Source: Myxococcota bacterium
Lineage (GTDB): Bacteria; Myxococcota_C; UBA6777
Assembly: GCA_023150835.1 (NCBI GenBank)
Contig: JAKLKB010000140.1
Span: 1-17,519 of the forward strand
DNA: 17,519 nucleotides
Direction: 5' to 3'
This document shows, one piece after another, positions 2,329 through 17,227 of this stretch. A program made the position numbers and the translations under genes. Numbering within the stretch: the stretch's first letter is position 1; every line of letters begins with the position of its first letter. The notes below the pieces were generated by a model. It did not search any database. It was not told where the DNA came from and worked only from the letters and a program-made list of their open reading frames with translations.

Positions 2329-3213
2329 TTAACGAGAGCGTGAGGTCCGAAGGGCTTCGGCTCCTGCGACGATATCGAGTAGCTCCGAGGTGATGGCGTC
2401 TTGGCGCTGTTGTTGAAACTGCAAGCCCAGTTCATCAAGCAAGGTCTCGATATTCTTTTCGGCGGACTGCATCGAAGCAAGGCGACTGGCGAACTCGCTT
2501 GCAAGGGACTCCACACAGGCACGATAAAGCGAAACAAACAGGTGCTGGCGCAGAAGGCTCGCAAAGAGCGGCTGCCACGCCATCTCGGAGCGGGGGATCT
2601 GCTTGTTTGGCCAAGCGGTATGCTGAAGGGTCGAGAGCCACTGCGGATCGACGGGCCACAGGGGCGTGCAGACGGGGGCAAAGGTCGCTGTTTCTACGGG
2701 GCGATTGTGAAAGATCAAGATCTGCACAGGTTCGAGGGCTTGGCGCTTTTCTTCGAGGGCAAGCAAAAGTTCTTGCATCGTCGGGGTGACGCCTGCGATG
2801 GAGATCGGCACAGGAAAGCGCTGTTGCAAAGGCCATCCGCGTTCTTCGAGGCGGATCGCAGCGCGCTCTCCGACGCCAAACAGCGTGCGACTTTGAAAGT
2901 GTTCGATCCCGACGGTTTGATCGACATGATCGGCGATCACTTCGTTGATCGAGCCACACAGACCTTGATCGGAGCCAAAGACCACCGCGATCAGGTGGCG
3001 TGGCGGGGGAGGGGGCGTGAGGGCTGAGACACCCTGCTGTTGTAAGACAAAACGGAAACCCAATGCGAGGGTGTGGTGGTAATCAAGCAGGGCGTGTACG
3101 GCGCGTTCGTACTGACGGATGCTGACGGAAGCAAGGGACTTCATGGTCTTGACGATGGTGTGGAGCGACTGGGTGTTGTCGATCTTTTTTTTAATCTCTT
3201 CGAGCGAGGCCAT
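2329..3213 (-). CDS. atpG: F-type (N-type) ATPase gamma subunit
   Basis: The gamma subunit is the central rotor shaft that links the catalytic hexamer to the c-ring. The 294-residue length is normal for the family. The N-terminal helix begins [20 protein letters not shown] and includes the conserved VKTMKSLA segment. The Rossmann-like middle carries [10 protein letters not shown] (81-90). The C-terminal helix includes the conserved [16 protein letters not shown] stretch (239-254). The ATG at 3213 lies 23 nt inside the end of atpA. An upstream in-frame extension to 3564 is only open frame across atpA and is rejected because it lacks homology. This is the last gene of the N-ATPase operon. Confidence 0.95.
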
Positions 3214-4753
3214 CTTGCGGTCCTTGGTCGAGGGTTTGGAGGGCTTGGCGGAGGGCGTCGGTGGTGAGGGCGATCTGGTCTGGGGTGAGTTTTTGAGCGC
3301 GGTCGATCTGCTCGATGATCTGGGGGAGGTGTTTGCGTGCGTGGCGGCGCACGATCTGTTCTGCTTCGGGGATACGGGCGAGTGGCAGGGCGTCAAACAG
3401 ACCTTGGGTGAGCGCAAGCAGCAAAAGGATCTGATCGGCTGCGGGGAGGGTATCGAATTGATCTTGTTTGAGGACTTCGCGGATACATCGGCCTCGTGTG
3501 AGGATCTGTCGGTTGGTCTCGTCAAGGCGTGCGCCAAAACGCGAGAAGGCTTCGAGTTCTTCAAACTGGGTGTAGGTCAAGCGAAGCATCCCCACCACAG
3601 CCCGATAAGCGGGGAGTTGGGTTTTTCCACCGACACGGGAGACCGAACGACCGATCTCGACGGCAGGAAGCATACCTTTTTGGAACAGGTCGGGAGAAAG
3701 ATAGATCTGGCCGTCGGAGATGGAGATCAAGTTGGTGGGGATATAGGCGGAAAGGTTCTGGGCTTCGGTTTCGACGATGGGAAGGGCGGTTAAGGAGCCG
3801 CCGCCGTGTTCTTTGCGAAGGCGTGTGGAGCGTTCAAGCAAGCGCGAATGGATGTAAAAGATATCGCCCGGGAAGGCTTCGCGTGCGGGAGGGCGGCGCA
3901 ACAGCAACGAGATCTCGCGGTAGGCGCGGGCATGACGGGTGAGATCGTCGTACACGATCAAGACATCGCGTCCGTGTTCCATCAAGTATTCGGCCATACT
4001 CGTGGCGGCGTACGGAGTGATGTACTGGAGTCCGGGCGGTGCGTCCCCTCCTGCAACGACTACTGTAGTGTAAGACATCGCGCCGTGTTGACGAAGTGTG
4101 TCGATCACTCGCGCCACAGCGGTGCTGCGTTGGCCGATCGCGCAATAGATGCACAGCACGCCTTGGTCGTGTTGGTGAAGGATGGTGTCGACGGCGATGG
4201 CGGTTTTGCCCGTCTGACGGTCTCCAAGGATGAGTTCACGTTGTCCCCGTCCGATCGGAAACATCGCGTCGATCACTTTGATGCCCGTCTGAAGGGGCTG
4301 TTGGACAGGATCGCGGTGCATAATGGGCGGGGCGATGCGTTCGAGCGGATAGCGTTGCGTTGCGCGGATCGGGCCGTTGTTGTCGAGCGGAACGCCTGTG
4401 GCATCCACGACGCGACCAAGCACGCCTTCACCCACAGGCACATCCACCAAATTTCCGCTGCGGTACACTTCGATCCCTGCGTACAGATGGGCGCTTTCTT
4501 CGATCAGCGCCACGCCGATATCTTCGGGGTTCAAGCGCAACACCATCCCCCGAGAGCCGTCCGCAAAAAGAATCTCTTCGCCCATCCGCGCCCCCGGAAG
4601 CCCCGTCACTCGGACGACTCCACGTTGTACCTCTCGAACGCGCCCGATCTCTCGGAGCGTTGGCTCCAATAAAAGTCCTGTTCTTGCGGTCTGTAGCCCC
4701 ACAAACGCTGGCGTCAAGATCGCCTCTCGGAGAGAACGCGCTGGCTCGGTCAT
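3191..4753 (-). CDS. atpA: F-type (N-type) ATPase alpha subunit
   Basis: The alpha subunit is the non-catalytic nucleotide-binding subunit of F1. It is 520 residues long, close to the family norm. The P-loop is GDRQTGKT (177-184). The Walker B region is [18 protein letters not shown] (263-280). The arginine finger that completes the catalytic site on beta is expected in RSVSRVGG (Arg373). The N-terminal segment ([17 protein letters not shown]) is the usual beta-barrel domain. The ATG overlaps the atpF stop by 4 nt (ATGA), which fixes this start. A longer frame reaching 4855 reads into atpF and is not used. The nearest relatives should be N-ATPase alphas rather than the housekeeping AtpA, judging from operon order. 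Confidence 0.95.
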
Positions 4754-5547
4754 ATCGCACCTTTCTCTGGTGGTGTGGGGGCTTGGGAGGAACGAGCGCT
4801 GAGGGCGTGTTGGAAGGTTGCACCCAAAGCATCGAGGTATTCGCGGAGATTCCATGCGATCTCGTAGGGTGGAACTTTGAGCGAGATACCGCCGAGCAGC
4901 GCGGGGTCTTGCGCAAATTCCACGCGCACAGGGGCATCTGCGATCTGTTCGATCTGTGTGAGAATGGCCTGTTGTTGGGCGTCGGAGAGCGGAAAGCGCG
5001 TGTGGACCGTCAGGGCTTCGGTGGATTCGTGAAGAGCGCGCTTGAGGGCGGCTTGGGTGGCGGGGTCGAGGGTGGTGAGTTTTTGCAAAAAGGCCGAGGT
5101 GATGGCTTGTTCGATCTCGGCGTGGGCAAGGTCGCGCAATGCGTGAGTGGCGATGGCAAGGGTTTCTTCACCGACGCGCTGTTGGAGGTCAAGCAAAAAG
5201 TCCTGCTTTTCTTGCTCGATCGAGCGTAGCCATCGGTCTTTTCGCTGTTGGAGATCGTCGCGGATGGTTTGAAGCATCTGCTGTTTTTGGGCTTCGGCTT
5301 CTTCTCGGATGCGCAGCAGAGCGGATTCTTGGGTCTCTCGCAACAGGCGTTGCTGCTTTTGGTTGTCTTCGAGAGCGATCTGCGCCTGCTGTTGGAGGCG
5401 TTCGGCCTCCTCCCATCGCTGCGCAACGGTTTGTTCGCGCTTGTCCATCGCGGCCAACAATGGGGCATAAAGGAAGCGTTTGAGCAGCGCCATCAAGATC
5501 AAAAAGTTGACGATCTGGGCGCTGACAGTGAACCAATCGATGCTCAC
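4750..5547 (-). CDS. atpF: N-type ATPase subunit b with fused delta-like C-terminal domain
   Basis: This is the peripheral stalk subunit, 265 residues from the GTG start. Residues 1-30 are the membrane anchor ([20 protein letters not shown]), the usual N-ATPase b opening. Residues about 35-150 are a long charged coiled coil rich in Gln, Glu and Arg. Residues about 155-245 resemble the C-terminal domain of the delta/OSCP subunit: [31 protein letters not shown], then a final helix. This agrees with the absence of a delta gene, as known for N-ATPase operons. I chose GTG at 5547 because GGGAG lies 8 nt upstream and the protein then starts exactly at the family N-terminus. A TTG at 5586 would add 13 residues of unlike sequence. 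Confidence 0.92.
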
Positions 5548-5555
5548 CGAAAATT

Positions 5556-5560
5556 CTCCC
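5556..5560 (-). promoter_or_regulatory. Ribosome binding site deciding the atpF start
   Basis: GGGAG on the minus strand, 8 nt before the GTG at 5547. It supports the GTG start over the TTG at 5586. Confidence 0.6.
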
Positions 5561-5608
5561 GCGTCTTGTGTATCTTGAGTGCGCAAAACAAAAGAGGCGT
5601 TGCGGTGT

Positions 5609-5899
5609 TTATTTTCCGACTGTTTTGGCGGCTTGGGCGATCACATAGTTCCAAAACGGGTTGGCAAAGAGCAGGATCATGGACACCACAAGGCAGTAGA
5701 TGGCGGTGGATTCGACCATTGCGATGCCCACAAACAAGGTGCGCGTGATCGTGTTGGCTTCGTCGGGTTGTTGGGCGATCGATTGGAGGGCTTGGGCGAG
5801 GGCGCGGCCTTCGCCAAGTGCGGGGGCGATCGAGCCGATGCCGACGGTCAAACCCGCAGTAAAGATCGAGACGCTGGCGATCAATCCGATGGTATCCAT
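5609..5899 (-). CDS. atpE: N-type ATPase c subunit with two-carboxylate ion site
   Basis: This is the rotor-ring proteolipid, 96 residues with two transmembrane helices. Helix 1 has the small-residue packing stretch VGIGSIAPALGEG with Glu30 where Na+-type c subunits such as that of Ilyobacter have Gln. Helix 2 carries the ion-binding Glu63 in MVESTAIYC; Ser64, Thr65 and Tyr68 fall at the Na+-ligand spacing (E-S-T-x-x-Y). The loop is the normal SIAQQPDEANTI. This two-Glu arrangement is known from Fusobacterium and from N-ATPases. Ion choice cannot be read with certainty, since the Burkholderia N-type ring with such a site was reported to be proton-selective. The ATG lies only 5 nt after the stop of the tnpB remnant; the nearest SD-like GGGA is 12 nt away, which is rather far. 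Confidence 0.95.
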   Translation of the reverse strand: MDTIGLIASVSIFTAGLTVGIGSIAPALGEGRALAQALQSIAQQPDEANTITRTLFVGIAMVESTAIYCLVVSMILLFANPFWNYVIAQAAKTVGK

Positions 5900-5904
5900 A
5901 AAGG

Positions 5905-6369
5905 CTACTGTTCCCTTTTCGTTAACAAATGTTGAACACTTGCTAAGCAAAGCGCCGAAGGATCGGCGGTCGTAACCGACAAAGCCCGCAGGAAGATCCC
6001 GCGAGCACCTTGGTGATCTCGATCCACTTCCACACCACATCGACAGCGAAATCGCTTTTTGCTGCCGATGTTTTGGATGTTTCCACAATAGGAACATGTC
6101 TTTGAGGTATAGGCTTCGTTCACTTCCACCACCGCTGCGCTGTATTCTTCCGCTTTCGCTTTCAGGTGTTGTTTGAAGCGGTAGTGCGCCCACGTCATCA
6201 TCGCCCGTGCTGTTTTGCTGTTGAGTTTGGACACCATCTGCTGTGTTTCAAACGTCGGCAACAAGATCACTTCGAAGCGTGTGACGAGGAAGTGTGCCAC
6301 CTTTTTGTGCAGATCATCCACCAAGTCGCGAATACGCCACCGTAATCGTTGCGCTGCACGGTTCAGGCT
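5905..6369 (-). pseudogene. tnpB: tnpB C-terminal fragment (IS607/Fanzor-like RuvC nuclease)
   Basis: This is an open frame (extending upstream to 6438) whose part from about 6369 resembles the C-terminal half of TnpB. In order it shows a basic helix pair, the FETQQMV and KTARAMMTWAHYRFKQHL segments typical of the IS607/Fanzor-like branch, then EVNEAYTSKTCSYCG with the likely RuvC Glu and the first zinc-ribbon pair, then a CRCG pair and VDRDHQGARGIFL with the last RuvC Asp. The RuvC-I Asp and the whole N-terminal recognition lobe are missing, so it cannot be an active RNA-guided nuclease. The last 24 or so codons to the stop at 5905 do not look like TnpB. It is probably translated, if at all, only as a relic in the operon mRNA. 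Confidence 0.85.
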
Positions 6370-6506
6370 GCGCTTTTGGCGTCCACTTTGCTCTTTCCTT
6401 CTTCTGCCCACTTCCTCAACGTGTTTGGATGGATGCACAGCATCTCACAGGTTTTTTTGTTGACAACAGTTCCATCTCTTTGCATCCGATGAGCTTCACG
6501 CTGCAT
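6363..6506 (-). pseudogene. tnpA: tnpA N-terminal fragment (IS607 serine recombinase HTH)
   Basis: A 47-codon frame, in a different phase from the tnpB piece. It contains VVNKKTCEMLCIHPNTLRKW followed by AEEGK. This matches the MerR-like helix-turn-helix at the N-terminus of IS607 transposases (the x-x-L-G-V-H-P-N-T-L-R-R-W-A-x-x-G-K pattern). It ends at a TGA shortly after Lys40. The serine-recombinase catalytic domain that should follow is absent. The assignment rests on the HPNTLRKWAEEGK motif plus the adjacent tnpB fragment; either alone would be weaker. Confidence 0.75.
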
Positions 6507-6542
6507 TCCATAGCAAATGTCATCGTCTCTGTCAACTCGTAT

Positions 6543-7253
6543 TTACTCCTTGGGGGTGGGTGAAGAAGACTCCGATGGTGTCGGAGATGGATGGGCTTGA
6601 TAGGCCGAAGCGATGTACACCATCGCCAAGATCGAAAAGATATACGCTTGAATCATTCCAGTGAGTAAGCCCAACAAGTCCATGATGATCGGAAAAAAGA
6701 ACGGAACGACGATCAAAAGGCTGCCTGTGATCAGACGCCCACTCATGGCGTTTCCAAACAGGCGAACCGCAAGCGCAAGGGTGCGGGATATCTCACCAAG
6801 GATATTAAATGGAAGCATAAAAGCCGAAGGTTCGATGTATTGGCGAAGATAAGGCAGCATTCCTTGTTGGGTGATGCCGTACAGCGGAACGGCCACAAAC
6901 ACACACAACGCAAGGGCTGTGGTGGTCGACAGCGATGCGGTCGGGGCGATAAACCCCGGGATCACCGAAAGCAAGTTGGAACCTGCGATAAACAGAAAAA
7001 GCGTTCCGATAAAAGGTAGAAAAGGACGGGGCGGTTGTTGTCCGACCTCTCGGATCTGCGAGAGGATCAGCACCAACAGGCTTTCCAACAAAGCCTGCCC
7101 TCGTGAGATCTTGACATCCGAAGAAAGGCGACGCCCTACCCACCAAGCGATCGACACAAGCAGCGCCATCACAAACCATGTCCACAACAAGGTCGCGTTC
7201 AGCCTGATAGGCCCCCACTGCCAAAGAATCAATGCGTCTGGAGAAAGCTGCAT
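6543..7253 (-). CDS. atpB: N-type ATPase subunit a
   Basis: Subunit a is the membrane stator half-channel that passes ions to the c-ring. It has 236 residues and opens MQLSPDALILWQWGPIRLNA, the usual N-ATPase start. Several transmembrane helices follow. The key stator arginine is Arg164 in LAVRLFGNAMSGRL, which faces the c-ring Glu. The next helices (FFFPIIMDLLGLL and QAYIFSILAMVYIASA) complete the conserved C-terminal hairpin. The tail is Ser/Pro/Thr-rich. The ATG overlaps the atpR stop by one base (TGATG), which fixes the start; an in-frame extension to 7376 reads through atpR. The IS607 remnant follows directly downstream. Confidence 0.95.
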   Translation of the reverse strand: MQLSPDALILWQWGPIRLNATLLWTWFVMALLVSIAWWVGRRLSSDVKISRGQALLESLLVLILSQIREVGQQPPRPFLPFIGTLFLFIAGSNLLSVIPGFIAPTASLSTTTALALCVFVAVPLYGITQQGMLPYLRQYIEPSAFMLPFNILGEISRTLALAVRLFGNAMSGRLITGSLLIVVPFFFPIIMDLLGLLTGMIQAYIFSILAMVYIASAYQAHPSPTPSESSSPTPKE

Positions 7254-7888
7254 CAGAACGACTCCGAACGAGGTTGAGAGGGAAGATCTTTGTTGAGAGG
7301 TGAGGCTTTCTTGGGGGTGATCTGCCCGAATACTCGGATGCAAACGTAGCGTGCGATCCAAAAACCAAACAAACACACCAACAGCCGCTCAGGGCGACCT
7401 TGCATCACCAGATAAAACGCTACCCCCGCCAAAAGCGTCCGCAGCGCAAAGCTGCCCAACAACCAAAGCGCAGGCGAGCGCCGATGCGGGACTTGTTGGG
7501 TCGTCCACCAAAGCCCGCCAAAATAAAACAGCCCAATCCCTACACCCAACACAAACGAAAGTAGCAACACAGCAAGCGTCAAGGGCGGGAAGCTTGTCAG
7601 AAAAAAGGACGGAAACATCAGGGACGGGAGGCTTGTCAGAAAAAGCGGTGACTGTGCCAACGAAGGCATCCCACCCATAGCAGTGAAGTCATGGCCAAAA
7701 AAAACCCGCGTTCGCGCCACTTCAAGCGATGCAGTTGTCTGTGTGAAAGGGCTGTGATCTCTTCGCCAATACGGGGTCAAGGGGACGACGACCCCTTGCG
7801 GGGTTTGGGGCAGCGCCCCACAAAAACCATGCGATCGCGTCAAGCCGATCGTGTCCAGAAAAATTAGCGATAGAAAGAAGAAGTTCAT
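7253..7888 (-). CDS. atpR: N-type ATPase accessory membrane protein AtpR, with repeat-expanded N-terminus
   Basis: AtpR is a small three-helix membrane protein found only in N-ATPase operons, thought to act with AtpQ in assembly of the rotor. The conserved core is residues about 103-190: LAVLLLSFVLGVGIGLFYFG, then GLWW, then an ALRTLLAGVAFYLVM helix and LLVCLFGFWIARYVCIR. I chose the ATG at 7888 because it overlaps the atpQ stop as ATGA, giving 211 residues. The first 90 or so residues are not family-like. They contain an in-frame copy of a dispersed repeat (7752-7829) and a 39-nt tandem duplication. Translation could instead begin at 7678, 7669 or 7618, close to the usual N-terminus, though none has a good ribosome binding site. 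The core is certain, the start is not. Confidence 0.8.
   Translation of the reverse strand: MNFFFLSLIFLDTIGLTRSHGFCGALPQTPQGVVVPLTPYWRRDHSPFTQTTASLEVARTRVFFGHDFTAMGGMPSLAQSPLFLTSLPSLMFPSFFLTSFPPLTLAVLLLSFVLGVGIGLFYFGGLWWTTQQVPHRRSPALWLLGSFALRTLLAGVAFYLVMQGRPERLLVCLFGFWIARYVCIRVFGQITPKKASPLNKDLPSQPRSESF
7583..7644. repeat. 39-nt tandem duplication near the start of the AtpR core
   Basis: The segment GGCTTGTCAGAAAAA (+ strand near 7630-7644) recurs with one mismatch 39 nt lower, near 7591-7605. In protein it gives FLTSLPSL and FLTSFPPL 13 residues apart, just before the first AtpR membrane helix. The unit is in frame. Confidence 0.6.
7752..7829. repeat. Dispersed repeat (family 2) in frame within atpR
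   Basis: About 78 bp that match 10285-10359 at both ends: CTGTGATCTCTTCGCC..CGGGGTCAAGGG on the left and CCCCACAAAA on the right. Inside are two small stems: ACCCC-TTGC-GGGGT at 7791-7804 and TGGGGC-AGC-GCCCCA at 7806-7820. It has no stop codon in the atpR frame. Confidence 0.65.
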
Positions 7889-8316
7889 CGTTTCTTCGGC
7901 TCCTTGGAAGTGTCGGTGGGTTGGGCGGAAGGGGGCGTGGTGTTGGAAGGCAGGAGCGGATCGTGGGGAAGGGGTGCAACACGGCGTTGGCTTTCCTTTT
8001 CGATCCAGTACCACGCTTGTCGACATCCCCAAAACAGACCAAGGAACAGGAAGGTCAGCGTCCAAGACACACGAGAAGGCCAAAGATGATCGAGCCAGAC
8101 ACCAAACAACGTGCCTGCGACGGTGGGGAGCGCCACCGACCAACCGACGAGGCCGAACATCCCCAAGCCGAACCAGACGGTGGGTGGGCCTTCTTGGCGG
8201 GCGCGAAGCTTGCGGGCCTCTCTTTGTCCGACTTCTTCGGGCCATCCACGCGAAGAGGATGGTTTGGGAGTGGGATCTGGTGGCTTGGGAGCGGTCAGAG
8301 GCGGATGTTGCGTCAT
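7885..8316 (-). CDS. atpQ: N-type ATPase accessory membrane protein AtpQ
   Basis: AtpQ is a small AtpI-like protein specific to N-ATPase operons. It has 143 residues. Residues 1-45 are a Pro-rich then charged cytoplasmic segment. Two membrane helices follow, about 47-74 (GMFGLVGWSVALPTVAGTLF) and 83-106 (SWTLTFLFLGLFWGCRQAWY). The GWSVALPT and GVWLD motifs are typical of the family. The C-terminal tail is Pro/Thr/Lys-rich. AtpI relatives help c-ring assembly, and a similar role is inferred here. It starts 8 nt after atpC ends, and its stop overlaps the atpR ATG as ATGA. Confidence 0.88.
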   Translation of the reverse strand: MTQHPPLTAPKPPDPTPKPSSSRGWPEEVGQREARKLRARQEGPPTVWFGLGMFGLVGWSVALPTVAGTLFGVWLDHLWPSRVSWTLTFLFLGLFWGCRQAWYWIEKESQRRVAPLPHDPLLPSNTTPPSAQPTDTSKEPKKR

Positions 8317-8324
8317 CTTTGATC

Positions 8325-10359
<2,035 letters not shown>

Positions 10360-10705: not shown

Positions 10706-13700
10706 TTATTGTTCACAAGAAAAGAGGGTGATCCACGCGGTCTGATCGCCGATGGCGAGGGTGCGGTCGTCGGGGGACCAAGCGAGTCCTTGGGTGGGGA
10801 GGCGTTGGAGGCGGAGGGAGTGCGCAAGGGTGTAGTTTTTGGTTTCGCGTAAGTCGATGCGTCCGTCGTTGTAAGCGATGGCGAGCCAGTGACCGTGAGA
10901 GCTAAAGCGTAAGCGGGTGGGGACGCCCGTGGTTTGGAGAGTTTGGAGCGTTGTGGCGGTTTGGGCATCCCAGAGGCGGATCTCCCCGTCGAGACTTGCG
11001 GAGGCGAGGTGTGCGGTTTGCGGGTGGACGGAAAGGGCGAGGATGCCTTGGGTATGGCCTTGGAGTGTACGAAGAGGGGCGGCGGTTTGGAGATTCCACA
11101 AGCGTACGGTCAAATCGAGACTTGCGGAGGCGAGCCAATCGCCTTTGGGATGGTAGGCCAGATCGGTGATGGCGGCAGTATGTTCGAGAAGTTTGTTGGA
11201 GACTTGGTTGGTGGACATCGACCAAAGCAGGATGGACTTGTCGTCGGCAGCGGTGGCGAGTTGAGCGTTGTCGGGGCTGAAGGTGGCGGCGTGGATCGGC
11301 GCGGTGTGTTGTAGGTTATCGCTGAAGCGTTGTTGGTTGTCGCTGAGGGAGGCGACACGGACGCGCTTGTCGGAGCCGACGGTGGCAAGGAGCTTGCTGT
11401 CAGGGCTGATCGCGACGGCGCGAAGATCGGTGCTGTGGCTGGAGATCGTGTGCAGCCAGCGCCAATCGCTGCGTCGGTCGATACGCCCCGTGCGGAGGGC
11501 AGAACCCGAAGCGAGGTAGAGGCCGTCGTTGCTAAAGGCGAGTGTTCGGACGCTGAGGGGGTAGCGTTCGAGGATCTGCCGTCGGGGATCGCGTGCGAAG
11601 TCCCACACACGCAAGATCCCATCCAAGCCGCCTGCAAAAAGCTGCGTCGCGTCTTGATTGAAGGAGACGCTGTAGAGGGCGGATGTTCCGATTGGAAGGT
11701 TTTGGAGGGTGGTGTTGTTGGACAGATCCCAGAGACGGAGGCTTCCGTCGTGGGAGGCGGAAGCAAGGCGCATGGCGTCGTGGCTCAGGGCGATCTGCTG
11801 GACGGCTTGGGTGTGGCCTTGGAGCGTGGTGCGTAATTCTCCTGTTTCGGGATTCCAGAGGCGGATGGTGGTGTCGTAAGAGGCGGAAAAAAGGCGCGAA
11901 CCGTCGCGTGAAAACAACAGATGCGTGATGCCTCCTGTATGGCCCTCAAGAGCGCGTAAGCGTTTTCCTGAGGCGGTGTCCCACAAAAGGATCTTTTGGT
12001 TAAAAAGTCCCGCAGCAAGGCGGTTTCCATCAAGGGTCCACGCGACACTCAAGGCGCGGCTGTTGTCGGTCAAGAGGGTGCGTAGATTGAGGCCAGTGCG
12101 CCAATCCCAAAGGCGGATGCTTCCGTCCCAAGAGGCGACGGCAAGCACGTTGCTGTCGGGCCGAAACGATAGCGACGAAACCTGATCGCGTTGTCCGAGA
12201 AAAGTTCGCAGCAGTCGCCCATCGGAGGTTTGCCACAGAAAGACTTGAGAGGCGGAAGCTGCGGCGAGAAAGCGTTGATCGGGACTCAAGGCGATGGCGT
12301 TGAGCGGTTCGGTGGCGTCGGTGAGGGTGTGAAGAAGGGTGCGTTGAGGATTCGTCCAAAGGCGGACTTTGTTGTCGGCGGTGGCGGTAGCAAGAAGGCG
12401 TTGATCGTTGCTGAGGGCGATGGCAAGGAGAGGGCCGCTTTGGAGGTCGAGTGTTGTGGGCGTGGGGAGTGGTTGAAAGTCCCAGACATCGGCATTTCCA
12501 TCTGCGCCAGCGGTGACGAGAGCGTTGTGTTGGGGGAGGAAGGCGAGGCTGGAGACGTGTTGGTTGCGTGGGCGGAGGATTTGGAGGAGTGCGCCGTCGG
12601 TGGTGCGCCAGATACGAACGGTGCGATCATAAGAGGCCGAAGTGAGCGTTTGGCCTTGGGCATCAAAGCGCAGAGCGCGGACATTGCTTGTGTGGGCGTC
12701 GATCGTGCGTTGAAGACTGGCATCATTGGTCTTCCAGATCTGGATCTGCCCGTTCCATCCGCCTGTTGCGAGGACGGATTGATCGGGATGCAGGGTGGCT
12801 GCATAAAGAGGCGTGTTGGTTTGGATGGTTTGTTGAAGAGTGCCGTCGGCGAGCTTCCATAGACGGGCGGTTTGGTCGACCGATGCGGAGAGCAAGAGGC
12901 TGTTGTCTTCGCTCAAGGCGAGGCTGGTGATCTCGCGTGTGTGGCCTTGGAGGGTGCGCAACAACATCCCGTCGCTGGTCTTCCAGACATGGATCAGGCC
13001 GTCCCATGCGGCGGTATAAGCGGTGGCTCCATCTTTGCTCAAGACGACGCTGCTTGCGACCATGCGATGCGCCCCAAAGGTGCGCAGGTAGGTTCCATCT
13101 TGGAGGTTCCACAAACGGACGCTTTGGTCGGTGGAGGCCGATGCAAGGAACCGACCATCAGCGCTGATCGCGAGAGCGCGGACGCCGCGTGTGTGGCCTT
13201 GGAGGGTGCGCACCACAGCAGGCTGTTGCCATGTCCAGATCTGGATCTCGTTGAAGCGTGCATTGGCGACCGCAACTTGCGCACCATCGGGAGAGATCGC
13301 AACGCTGGTCACGCGGTCGAAGTGCGTGTGCAGGGACCGGAGTCGTTGGCCGTTGGCATCGTTAAGGATCTCGATGTGTTGATCGGAAGAGGCGATGGCA
13401 AGACGATTTCCATCGGGGAGCCAACCTACGCTATAGGGCGACTGGCTGCTTTGGTATTCGTAAAGCATCTGACCGCTTTGGGTGGCCCATACACGGACAA
13501 ATCGGTCGGTTCCTACGGTCGCCATGCGCGTTCCATCGGGATGAAAAGCCACATCGTAGATCGAGTTGTTTCCGTGTCCTTGCCAAGAGCGCGAGACCGT
13601 CCCTGTGGCGATATCGATCAGCTTGATCGTGCGATCGGGTGAAAGCGAAACGCTGGCAAGCGTCTTTCCGTCGGGACTACGGGCGATCCCACGAACGGCT

Positions 13701-16700
13701 CCGCTGTGGTGTTTGTATTGCTGGGTGGACTGCCCCGTCGCAACGTCCCAATAGCGGATCTCTTGATCGGCAGAACCCGAATACAAGGTCTTGCTATCGA
13801 GTGAAAAGGCCAAGGCCCACACGGTGTTGGTATGGCCGTTGAACTCCAGCGCGAAGGTGCGATCGGAGACCTTCCACAAGCGGATGATTCGGTCGGCTCC
13901 TGCGCTGGCGATCCACTGACCATCGGGGCTAAAGGCGACCGCATACACCGTGCTGGTGTGCTTAGAGAGTCCGCCAAGATAGCTCCCGTCAGAGATCTTC
14001 CATAGATGAACAAGGCGGTCACTTCCGACGGCTGCGAGGCTCTGGCTATCGGGACTCCACGCAAGATGTTGAAGGGCGCTGGTGGCTTCGACAAAGGTGT
14101 ACTTGAGCCGCTCGGTCGCGAGATCCAAGACGCGGACGATCTGGCTTTCGTCGTCGATCGAAGCGAGATACTTTCCATCGGGGCTGATCGCTGCGCGCAA
14201 GATCCCAAAGCGGCTATTGTTTTCGGTGTAGGCTTCCCATCGCCGTTGCAGGACACTTGGGAGGCAACACGTCGGCGCGTTGGTGTGAGCGCAAGCGTTG
14301 GGCCGCTGGCCGGGGGGCAGATGCGTGATCTCTTCGGGCGGAGGCTCGGGTTGGGACTCGGTGCTGATCTCGGTGGTAGGTTCGGTGCCGATCTCGGCGG
14401 TGGATTCGGGCGAAGCGTCGAGGGCTTGTTCCGCGGTGGCCTCGGATGGTTCTTCGGGGCCGATCTCGGCGGTGGGTTCGGGCGAGGCATCGAGAGGCTT
14501 CTCTGTGACAGGCTCAGCGGTCGTTTCCGCCGAGGTCTCTTGGGAGGGCGTTTGACATCGGGTGGTTTGGCAGATCTGCCCTTGTGCGCAATCGCTGTCT
14601 TGGCGACAAGACACGCTAGACTCGGGACATCCGAACAATGGGAGCAAAGACAGGCCGCACAGACCCACGACCCACAGCAGCGGCCTGATGCGGCGACCGC
14701 AAAACCACGCGATCGTGCGCTTTCGTTGCAAGAAAATAAGCAGCCATATCGCCATCAAGCCCCATCCTGCCGATGGGGTGGTGTTTTCCGATACCGCCGA
14801 ACAACCACACCCTGTTTTGGGCGGAGCGTCGAAAGCGATCTCGGCGGTGGCTTCGGGCTTTGGTTCCGCGACGGTTTCGGCGGTAGGTTCGGGCGTAGGT
14901 TCGGAGACGATCTCGGCGGTGGCTTCGGGCTTTGGCTCGTCTTCTCTTTCTACGGCCTCGGGCGAAGCATCTGGTTGCGCAGGTTCTTCTTGCCATTGCT
15001 CAAGCTCGATCCCCGACAAACAGCGGCCTTCTCGACAAGCGTACGTCGGTGGACACTCGCCATCGTTTCGACAAGGATTGCTTGTGCGGTTTCCTTCACA
15101 GATCCCAAATGGGCGGAAGATTCGGCGACAAACGCGATCTGCCCCACAATCTTTGTCTTCTGCGCAATAGCAGATATCGATCTGCGTGTTGGGTTTGCTG
15201 CAATAGCCGCCAAAACGGCAGGTCTTGGTTTGGCTGCAATCTTCTACACAAAAACTCCCGTCGTTGGTGCGGATACACGCGAGATCTTGTTTGCAGCGGT
15301 TCAGCGGATCGCAAGACTGGCCGAGCGCCCGTTGTCCGGGCGTGGCAGAGACACAATAACTTTCGCCTTGGAAAGATTCGCAGGTGTAAGGAGACGCGCA
15401 GGCTTGGACGGTTGTGGTCGCAACGCAAGCCCCGACCACGCCCGAGCTTGTGTTGCAAGAGAAGCCTTGGCCGCACTCCGCAGTCTGACGACAAGCGCAG
15501 ACATTTTGATAACAAAAACCTCCGCCCACCTTACCGCAGTCTGTATCGCTGTTGCAGGGATGCAGACAGAGGTTCTGAGAAGAGGCCAGCGTGTAGCATG
15601 ACATCGGAGCGTCGCAGCTTGTGCCATCGCGACAGGTACTGCCGGCTTTTCCGGCAGGTGCGCCACAAGCGGGAAGACAGCGTTTGCCGCTGAGCGTGCG
15701 TTTGCAAACCAGCGGATCTTGACAAGGCACAGGATCGCAAGAGGCCGCAAATCCGCCTCCTTGGGGTTCTGCGCAGACTCCACCCGTGCAGCTATGGCTT
15801 TTCGGACAATGGCTATCAAACAAACAGGGGATCTGACAGGCCCCATCTTCGGGCAAACATTGGCGAGGAAGTCCCGCGTAGGGTTCTTGACAAGCATAAC
15901 CCGCAGGGCAAAAGTCCCCCGCCCCGCAGGGTTGAGAACAAAAGCGATGCCCTTCGATCCCCAAGCAATATCCGCCGCTGGCTTGGCAGTCGGCTTGGCT
16001 TTGACAGGGCTTGCACAGATCAGCGGAGCGCGCAACGGGTTGAGGCTGACAAGTACCGTTTTCGCAAAACTCTCCTGCGCCGCACGTTGCGGTGCTGTTG
16101 CACGTCAGCGCAGGACACGATCCCTCAAAGGGCTTACACAACTTGGCTACACCGCTTTGGGTTTGAAGCGTTGCGCAGTAGTGGCCGTCAGGGCAACAAT
16201 CCGCAGCGTCACAGGCCAAAAGACAGCGGTATCCGTCTTGAAAGCGAAAGCACCCACCCCCCACACAGTCTTTGTCGCTTTTGCATGCACCACAGATCCC
16301 CGTCGCTTGGCTGATCGGGACGCCTTCGCAAAACTTGGTGTTCGCGCACCGCCGACACACGCCGCAGTCCGCATCTTGGGTGCAAGGCTCAGGACCATCG
16401 CCATAACTCGACAAGATCGACTGGATAAAACTGGTGTACGTATCCGTACGCATCGAAGTCCCCGAACCTGTGCAACTTGAGCGCGGTGGATTCGCCCCTT
16501 GCACCGAAGGCGCGCTCACATAGGAGTTCACGCCGATCACACGGACCTTTCCATCCAGAAGCACCAGCGCAGGACCACCCGAGTCCCCATGACACACGCT
16601 TTTTCCCGTCGCTTGGTGCGTAAAACGATCTGTCAACACTTGTACGATCGGGATCTCGACCCCGTGTTTGCGGTCGGCGGATATCCGTGTGGGGGTGCTT

Positions 16701-17227
16701 TGCAATAAGCCATAACCCAGAAACAACGGGCTTTTGCTCGCCCAAAGATTCGTGTCTGTATTGAAGTTCACCGCGATCGGTTGCGCGATGTTGACAGCTT
16801 GCTTGAGGATGCCAAAGCCGATATCCCCGCCATTCGAGAGGTTGGTATTCCAGATCGGGTGGTTCTTAAACAAGGCCATATCGAACGCAAAGTAGTTGGC
16901 TTGGAAACCCGAAGAAGCGTTCGCATCAGGAAGATCGATGCGGAACTCGACCGACGCCCCTTTGTATTCAAGTGCTGCATCCACACAGTGCGCCGCCGTC
17001 AACACCACGCGCTTGGCGATCAACGTCCCTGTGCAAAATGACGAACGATTCGAGGTCAACGCCCCTACCGCAGGATAACGCAGATCCGGTTGCCCCCCGA
17101 TAATCGGCTGTGTTGTGTGCCCAATCTTGTCTAACAACGGCGTATCGGTCGGTAAACAAGCGCCCCACACCATCCATCCCAAACCCATCCACATCACAAA
17201 CCATCTTCGATCACGACGCTTCCACAA
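10706..17227 (-). CDS. Secreted S1 serine protease / Cys-rich / MYXO-CTERM-like / lipobox / WD40 giant fusion protein
   Basis: One uninterrupted frame of 2173 residues. It starts at TTG (17227), seven nt after AGGAGA. Residues 1-24 are a signal sequence, possibly ending at a lipid-modified Cys24. Residues 42-272 are a chymotrypsin-fold protease: IIGG start, His80 (TAAHC), Asp135, Ser216 (GDSGGP). Position 189 (chymotrypsin numbering) is Ser210, so it is unlikely to be Lys/Arg-specific. Residues 282-740 hold many Cys-rich C-x-x-D-x-D-C modules. Next come a Pro/Glu linker (747-803), a GCGC motif with hydrophobic segment and RKR tail (806-837), a second hydrophobic segment ending in LFGC (Cys867), one more Cys-rich module, a similar linker (896-972) and 28 WD40 repeats (about 1004-2173). 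It may be two ancestral genes in one frame. Substrates and role are unknown. Confidence 0.85.
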   Translation of the reverse strand: MWKRRDRRWFVMWMGLGWMVWGACLPTDTPLLDKIGHTTQPIIGGQPDLRYPAVGALTSNRSSFCTGTLIAKRVVLTAAHCVDAALEYKGASVEFRIDLPDANASSGFQANYFAFDMALFKNHPIWNTNLSNGGDIGFGILKQAVNIAQPIAVNFNTDTNLWASKSPLFLGYGLLQSTPTRISADRKHGVEIPIVQVLTDRFTHQATGKSVCHGDSGGPALVLLDGKVRVIGVNSYVSAPSVQGANPPRSSCTGSGTSMRTDTYTSFIQSILSSYGDGPEPCTQDADCGVCRRCANTKFCEGVPISQATGICGACKSDKDCVGGGCFRFQDGYRCLLACDAADCCPDGHYCATLQTQSGVAKLCKPFEGSCPALTCNSTATCGAGEFCENGTCQPQPVARSADLCKPCQSQADCQASGGYCLGIEGHRFCSQPCGAGDFCPAGYACQEPYAGLPRQCLPEDGACQIPCLFDSHCPKSHSCTGGVCAEPQGGGFAASCDPVPCQDPLVCKRTLSGKRCLPACGAPAGKAGSTCRDGTSCDAPMSCYTLASSQNLCLHPCNSDTDCGKVGGGFCYQNVCACRQTAECGQGFSCNTSSGVVGACVATTTVQACASPYTCESFQGESYCVSATPGQRALGQSCDPLNRCKQDLACIRTNDGSFCVEDCSQTKTCRFGGYCSKPNTQIDICYCAEDKDCGADRVCRRIFRPFGICEGNRTSNPCRNDGECPPTYACREGRCLSGIELEQWQEEPAQPDASPEAVEREDEPKPEATAEIVSEPTPEPTAETVAEPKPEATAEIAFDAPPKTGCGCSAVSENTTPSAGWGLMAIWLLIFLQRKRTIAWFCGRRIRPLLWVVGLCGLSLLPLFGCPESSVSCRQDSDCAQGQICQTTRCQTPSQETSAETTAEPVTEKPLDASPEPTAEIGPEEPSEATAEQALDASPESTAEIGTEPTTEISTESQPEPPPEEITHLPPGQRPNACAHTNAPTCCLPSVLQRRWEAYTENNSRFGILRAAISPDGKYLASIDDESQIVRVLDLATERLKYTFVEATSALQHLAWSPDSQSLAAVGSDRLVHLWKISDGSYLGGLSKHTSTVYAVAFSPDGQWIASAGADRIIRLWKVSDRTFALEFNGHTNTVWALAFSLDSKTLYSGSADQEIRYWDVATGQSTQQYKHHSGAVRGIARSPDGKTLASVSLSPDRTIKLIDIATGTVSRSWQGHGNNSIYDVAFHPDGTRMATVGTDRFVRVWATQSGQMLYEYQSSQSPYSVGWLPDGNRLAIASSDQHIEILNDANGQRLRSLHTHFDRVTSVAISPDGAQVAVANARFNEIQIWTWQQPAVVRTLQGHTRGVRALAISADGRFLASASTDQSVRLWNLQDGTYLRTFGAHRMVASSVVLSKDGATAYTAAWDGLIHVWKTSDGMLLRTLQGHTREITSLALSEDNSLLLSASVDQTARLWKLADGTLQQTIQTNTPLYAATLHPDQSVLATGGWNGQIQIWKTNDASLQRTIDAHTSNVRALRFDAQGQTLTSASYDRTVRIWRTTDGALLQILRPRNQHVSSLAFLPQHNALVTAGADGNADVWDFQPLPTPTTLDLQSGPLLAIALSNDQRLLATATADNKVRLWTNPQRTLLHTLTDATEPLNAIALSPDQRFLAAASASQVFLWQTSDGRLLRTFLGQRDQVSSLSFRPDSNVLAVASWDGSIRLWDWRTGLNLRTLLTDNSRALSVAWTLDGNRLAAGLFNQKILLWDTASGKRLRALEGHTGGITHLLFSRDGSRLFSASYDTTIRLWNPETGELRTTLQGHTQAVQQIALSHDAMRLASASHDGSLRLWDLSNNTTLQNLPIGTSALYSVSFNQDATQLFAGGLDGILRVWDFARDPRRQILERYPLSVRTLAFSNDGLYLASGSALRTGRIDRRSDWRWLHTISSHSTDLRAVAISPDSKLLATVGSDKRVRVASLSDNQQRFSDNLQHTAPIHAATFSPDNAQLATAADDKSILLWSMSTNQVSNKLLEHTAAITDLAYHPKGDWLASASLDLTVRLWNLQTAAPLRTLQGHTQGILALSVHPQTAHLASASLDGEIRLWDAQTATTLQTLQTTGVPTRLRFSSHGHWLAIAYNDGRIDLRETKNYTLAHSLRLQRLPTQGLAWSPDDRTLAIGDQTAWITLFSCEQ
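10709..14218 (-). repeat. Array of 28 WD40-type repeats
   Basis: Counting the recurring pattern (hydrophobic-A-x-S-P-D-G, then L-A-S-A-S-x-D, then I-R-L-W, then L-x-G-H-T) by eye gives 28 units of about 42 residues. Four seven-bladed propellers would use exactly that number. The repeats have diverged from each other, so the array is not a very recent expansion. Units 22, 23 and 27 lack the Trp of the LW motif. Confidence 0.8.
14627..14818 (-). other. Junction: MYXO-CTERM-like signal followed by lipoprotein-type signal
   Basis: This covers residues 804-867 of the giant protein. It reads Cys807-Gly-Cys809, a short polar stretch, the hydrophobic GLMAIWLLIFL, the basic QRKR, a short WFCGRRIRP segment, then LLWVVGLCGLSLLPLFGC. 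The first half has the order of a MYXO-CTERM sorting signal and the second that of a lipoprotein signal peptide with lipobox LFGC. Met825 (ATG at 14755) or Leu833 (TTG at 14731) could serve as a start for a separate lipoprotein, but I see no good ribosome binding site. Confidence 0.7.

Follow-up and report, generated by a model that had tools for sequence, protein, structure and literature searches.

Back-to-back MYXO-CTERM and lipoprotein signals join a protease and a WD40 protein of Myxococcota in a predicted surface polyprotein

The window, the whole stretch of 17,519 nucleotides analysed here, is one entire contig of a 7.56 Mb draft genome (G000, 239 contigs) of a Myxococcota bacterium. 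Its minus strand carries a single uninterrupted open reading frame (ORF) of 2173 amino acids, which runs without an internal stop from a TTG codon at 17227, preceded by a Shine-Dalgarno (SD)-like AGGAG, to a stop codon at 10706-10708. The ORF encodes, in this order, a trypsin-like protease, Cys-rich repeats, a MYXO-CTERM sorting signal, a basic loop, a lipoprotein signal with Cys867 and a WD40 propeller. An ATP synthase operon (window 2329-10258, minus strand) adjoins the fused gene and includes an AtpR-type subunit, as in N-ATPases, which are alternative F-type ATPases that often pump ions. The fused gene has the following features.

10706-17227, minus strand: fused ORF of 2173 amino acids, open from the TTG; also fused in the sister genome
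17156-17227, minus strand: N-terminal signal of the protease half, probably of lipoprotein type (Cys24, invariant in five genomes)
16511-17092, minus strand: trypsin-like domain, residues 46-239 (PF00089, 63.2 bits, cut-off 20.6)
15017-16402, minus strand: Cys-rich repeat region, residues 276-737 (Cys columns invariant in five genomes)
14717-14812, minus strand: internal MYXO-CTERM sorting signal, residues 806-837 (TIGR03901, 23.0 bits, cut-off 20)
14684-14728, minus strand: basic loop QRKRTIAWFCGRRIR, residues 834-848, predicted to be cytoplasmic; position of the lost stop and start
14627-14695, minus strand: lipoprotein-type signal, residues 845-867, with Cys867 (orthologues and WD40 paralogues share the Cys; dN/dS 0.39, from a small number of changes)
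14555-14614, minus strand: Myxo_Cys_RPT repeat behind the lipobox, residues 872-891 (TIGR04201, 24.5 bits, cut-off 25)
10709-14347, minus strand: WD40 propeller region, about residues 961-2173 (PF00400 and related models)

The catalytic triad of the protease half (H80, D135 and S216) is invariant among the five genomes aligned. Because Cys24 is lipobox-like and equally invariant, the protease half probably starts as a lipoprotein in its own right, and with the sorting tag at its other end the mature protein may carry lipid on each terminus. Residues 805-868 of the junction read T-G806-C807-G-C809-SAVSENTTPSAGWGLMAIWLLIFL-QRKR837-TIAWFCG-RRIR-PLLWVVGLCGLSLLPLFG-C867-P, or, unbroken, TGCGCSAVSENTTPSAGWGLMAIWLLIFLQRKRTIAWFCGRRIRPLLWVVGLCGLSLLPLFGCP. 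The first signal has the MYXO-CTERM form, with C807 as the candidate lipidated Cys of the motif, a helix at residues 820-833 and then the Arg-rich QRKR; G806, C807, C809 and R835 are invariant in the five genomes. TIGR03901 matched the window junction with 23.0 bits in the genome scan and with 20.9-21.4 bits on short junction pieces, whereas the entire 2173-residue protein scored only 17.6 bits, under the cut-off of 20. In Myxococcota bacterium KLAP109 (G001; 93% identity), the sole other genome of the same genus compared, the orthologue scored 34.6 bits, the top score in that genome. The second signal consists of an RRIR n-region, a hydrophobic core and the lipobox LFGC, which departs from the usual consensus by Phe at -2 and Pro at -4; Cys stands at the Cys867 position also in the orthologues of three further genomes (G002, G003 and G004) and in WD40 paralogues. 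The hydropathy profile has two hydrophobic segments, at about residues 820-833 and 849-866, and residues 834-848 between them contain six Arg or Lys and no acidic residue. The original prediction had described a MYXO-CTERM signal followed in one frame by a lipoprotein signal, with both domains outside and a basic turn inside. This anatomy is confirmed by the open ORF, by a TIGR03901 score above the cut-off and by the conserved position of Cys867, and the predicted topology agrees with the two hydrophobic segments and their basic, acid-free loop.

A MYXO-CTERM signal is normally found at the end of a protein. Among 116 sites read in the five genomes, 111 reach a stop within 23 residues, one is followed by 69 residues that include no export signal, and the remaining four, all internal, are those of the window, of its orthologue in G001, and of two further loci (G000:C70 and G001:C20). 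The tag of the window has 1336 residues behind it, whereas it is terminal in the three separate orthologues. All four internal tags are followed by a second export signal. Since 111 of the 116 tags end at a stop and 4/4 internal ones precede an export signal, chance is an unlikely cause of the pairing.

Comparison with related genomes points to how the junction arose. The G001 gene has the same fusion junction and stays open up to the contig end at residue 1074, which covers only part of the WD40 half. In G002, G003 and G004, which represent other genera of the same family, the two halves are adjacent but separate genes: the ATG of the WD40 gene overlaps the TGA of the protease gene in G003 and G002, and lies one base beyond the TAA in G004. 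All three carry a strong SD (-8.7 to -11.7 kcal/mol) that lies among the Arg codons of the tag or immediately behind them. As the genus mate is fused while the halves are split and adjacent in the other genera, the comparison indicates that the window gene is a genus-level in-frame fusion of a translationally coupled gene pair. In 3/3 sister-genus genomes the downstream start is in a different frame from the upstream gene, so the fusion required an indel or deletion, and a simple stop-to-sense point mutation is unlikely. A reassigned stop codon was ruled out, as all three stops terminate other MYXO-CTERM genes of the same genome. The alternative raised in the original prediction, that two neighbouring genes had lost the stop between them, is thus right as an account of the origin, with the halves overlapping or abutting in three genomes of the family. 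The comparison of relatives that it had proposed found the halves fused in G001 and split in the other three, so that they are not always separate.

For the pair of fused species, dN/dS is 0.17 overall. It is 0.14 for the MYXO motif, on small counts, and 0.39 for the second signal, about 2 for the first helix and about 1.5 for the loop, all on few changes; both Cys sites (C807 and C867) are kept in both species. The fused MYXO-CTERM is 72% identical between the species, compared with 76-100% for 17 pairs of terminal MYXO-CTERM signals in the same two genomes. The downstream ATG and the strong SD of the sister genera have been lost in the fused genus, and a weak SD-like AGGA remains ahead of TTG824/ATG825 (-7.0 kcal/mol).

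The genus contains further fusions of this kind. A second one in the window genome (G000:C70:51615-59135; L150:5616-13136, minus strand) is an ORF of 2506 amino acids that joins a MopE-like, Cys-rich MYXO-CTERM protein to a second half opening with a lipoprotein-type signal, and its junction retains a TTG with a strong SD (-8.7). The third, found in both species (G001:C20:9273-11531, L151:4274-6532; G000:C90:13884-16100, L209), joins a MYXO-CTERM protein with the zinc-protease-like motif HEIGHALGIGH to a protein with a type I-like signal; in G001, the stretch encoding LLALRSRR is duplicated at the junction. In G003, the orthologous halves of the C70 and C20/C90 fusions are separate neighbouring genes. 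By sequence comparison, the genus thus has three separate fusions, each between a MYXO-CTERM gene and an exported protein. In another MYXO-CTERM gene of the window genome (G000:C34:2482-2565, L166), the tag is followed by 69 residues, against 9 in the sister species, without an export signal; this is a stop loss into apparently non-coding sequence and a contrast case to the fusions.

We searched junction profiles against 188 and then 377 Myxococcota genomes. In the first run, eight loci were read, of which seven are in-frame fusions of a MYXO-CTERM with an export signal and one is an ordinary terminal tag. In the second run, in which stop-free full-length junction matches were read, all 19 loci, two of them already found in the first run, are such fusions. 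Because the profiles contain both signals, the counts tell us that such an architecture is real and occurs repeatedly but are no measure of its frequency, and the presence of a second signal in all of them is partly a matter of ascertainment. The fused architecture also lies on chromosome-sized contigs, for instance G211:C1 (8.05 Mb) and G147:C1 (5.85 Mb), and the survey overturned the view that fusion is limited to the window genus. Comparison of both halves yielded three families of fusions with conservation upstream and downstream of the junction: F1 in seven genomes at 24-48% identity, and F2 and F3 in three genomes each.

The best case for a fused junction being kept as coding sequence, together with its two Cys sites, comes from F1. 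With a profile of F1, 31 loci in at least 29 genomes cross the junction in one stop-free match; further genomes carry both parts within one ORF, and a few appear to be split. A regular expression missed 16 of 30 F1 junctions, and every locus was therefore read individually: in 30/30, the tag-like Cys, helix and Arg cluster are accompanied by a second helix and a second Cys. In an alignment of seven members (30-43% identity to the first sequence), G232, C233 and C235 of the tag and C285 of the lipobox are invariant. In three close relatives, dN/dS is 0.14-0.35 at the junction against 0.07-0.17 in the halves, by which measure the junction is under purifying selection comparable to that of the halves. 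The loci (L345-L374) represent a widespread fused Myxococcota family, whose second half is Cys-rich and then looks propeller-like; one member, L330, had no Pfam match, and its NCBIfam match was to MYXO-CTERM only. The back-to-back design is recurrent in the phylum and anciently conserved there, and this suggests that Myxococcota produce some of their surface proteins as polyproteins that are then cut.

Internal sorting tags in fused proteins are already known. In Myxococcus xanthus, the internal MYXO-CTERM of MXAN_5598 has been ascribed to the fusion of two genes, and the N-terminal part was proposed to be processed and anchored (PMC11980579). MXAN_5598 shares the internal MYXO-CTERM with the window protein, but downstream of the tag it has an OmpA-domain beta-barrel of the outer membrane in place of the WD40 lipoprotein, and neither a second lipoprotein signal beside the tag nor a conserved class was described (PMC11980579). 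HVO_0405 of Haloferax volcanii, a substrate of the archaeosortase ArtA, is likewise a fusion of two once-independent genes with a central sorting signal, at which cleavage was shown experimentally (PMC7157517). It differs in being archaeal and in using another sorting enzyme and signal, and the passages on it describe no back-to-back lipoprotein signal (PMC7157517). The statement of the original prediction that no polyprotein of this design had been described therefore needs correcting in the light of MXAN_5598 (PMC11980579) and HVO_0405 (PMC7157517). The M. xanthus MYXO-CTERM gene traA overlaps traB by four bases, which resembles the ancestral arrangement as seen in G003, but the two are not fused and TraB is an OmpA-domain protein (PMC3325183).

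Two NCBIfam models have names close to this design: NF033207 (midcut-by-XrtH), by its name a protein cut in mid-chain, and NF058595 (lipo-invert tail), by its name a putative lipid-related anchoring tail. NF058595 gave 13-25 bits with some of the junctions from other Myxococcota. Filing the architecture under either model was rejected, as no score reached the cut-offs (45 and 37 bits) and neither model matched the window junction; our literature search found no papers on "midcut" in this sense or on "lipo-invert". Two proteins are also obtained from one gene in the cytochrome b/c1 precursor FbcH of Bradyrhizobium, by cleavage at an internal signal peptide; unlike the window protein, FbcH is cut by a type I signal peptidase and has no C-terminal sorting tag. 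The back-to-back tag and lipoprotein signal, their repeated origin and the conserved fused families were not found in the open-access literature searched.

The window genome encodes the myxosortase MrtP (268 bits, cut-off 250) and two LspA genes above cut-off. Within a few kb of the MrtP gene stands a Cys-rich MYXO-CTERM gene (G000:C16:11515-15802; L101, L127), whose product may be a substrate encoded next to its enzyme. We consider double processing the best-supported mechanism, in which each signal most likely works as it does when terminal, and we assign a probability of about 0.6 to the reading that the window protein is a polyprotein with two cuts, one made by myxosortase behind Cys807 and one by LspA ahead of Cys867. 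The chain would form a hairpin in the inner membrane, and both domains would lie outside it. Cys807 would be lipidated, and MrtP, the presumed enzyme, would cut just behind it; Guo and colleagues proposed that the MYXO-CTERM Cys is lipidated prior to cleavage by myxosortase (PMC11980579). For cutting at a sorting signal in the middle of a fused chain, HVO_0405 is a precedent (PMC7157517). Lgt and LspA would act at Cys867, with LspA cutting just ahead of it. The hairpin peptide of about 59 residues (808-866) would be discarded, leaving one protease with a lipid at each end for every separate WD40 lipoprotein.

The WD40 half could instead be translated mainly from a start codon that lies in frame within the MYXO-CTERM helix, and the fusion would then be incidental. 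TTG824, present in both species, and ATG825/827 stand behind an AGGA (-5.9 to -7.0 kcal/mol), and the TTG and SD kept in the C70 fusion also speak for such a start. However, the best combination of start and SD across 24 fused junctions equals the coding background (median -3.0 vs -3.0, one-sided p 0.48), and six of the 24 junctions are without any ATG, GTG or TTG. Internal initiation is therefore not a general rule. With the strong SD of the sister genera lost from the fused genus, and with ribosomes that initiate upstream bound to make the fusion anyway, we regard it as unlikely for the window protein, even if individual loci such as C70 may use it.

It is also rather improbable that neither signal is cut and that a helical hairpin holds the protease and the propeller together on one membrane. 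The topology allows such a tether, and the diverging MYXO-CTERM of the window would fit it, but a bare hairpin needs no Cys, yet both are invariant in the seven F1 members and kept in the window genus, and MrtP and LspA are encoded. Cleavage at just one signal, which would leave one half with a transmembrane helix, is more doubtful still: the marginal MYXO-CTERM score and the imperfect lipobox of the window favour it, whereas the conservation of both Cys in both species and in F1 argues against it. Very little credence can be given to a sequencing or assembly artefact, or to a decaying pseudogene with a lost stop. The window does come from a draft genome of many contigs, but the second genome has the same fusion, the dN/dS over the whole region is low, and the architecture occurs on the chromosome-sized contigs mentioned above; an assembly artefact is rejected on account of the second genome and these contigs. 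Since the sister genome shares the fusion and the architecture is conserved elsewhere in the phylum, the fusion is neither a mistake nor a dead end.

The double-processing mechanism, if true, means that a C-terminal sorting tag is functional despite hundreds of residues behind it. Processing of both signals would give two anchored partners a fixed equal stoichiometry and joint export without a dedicated protease. With autonomous cut signals on both sides, fusions would cost little, which would explain their recurrence and persistence in Myxococcota and suggests why tagged genes repeatedly fuse to downstream export genes. We see about even odds that the fused proteins form an ancient, conserved class of surface polyproteins found throughout the phylum, from which myxosortase and LspA would excise the hairpin linker and release matched lipid-anchored pairs. 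Such proteins would be clean substrates for testing the order and specificity of myxosortase and LspA, and they carry a warning for annotation that a single ORF can mean two mature proteins.
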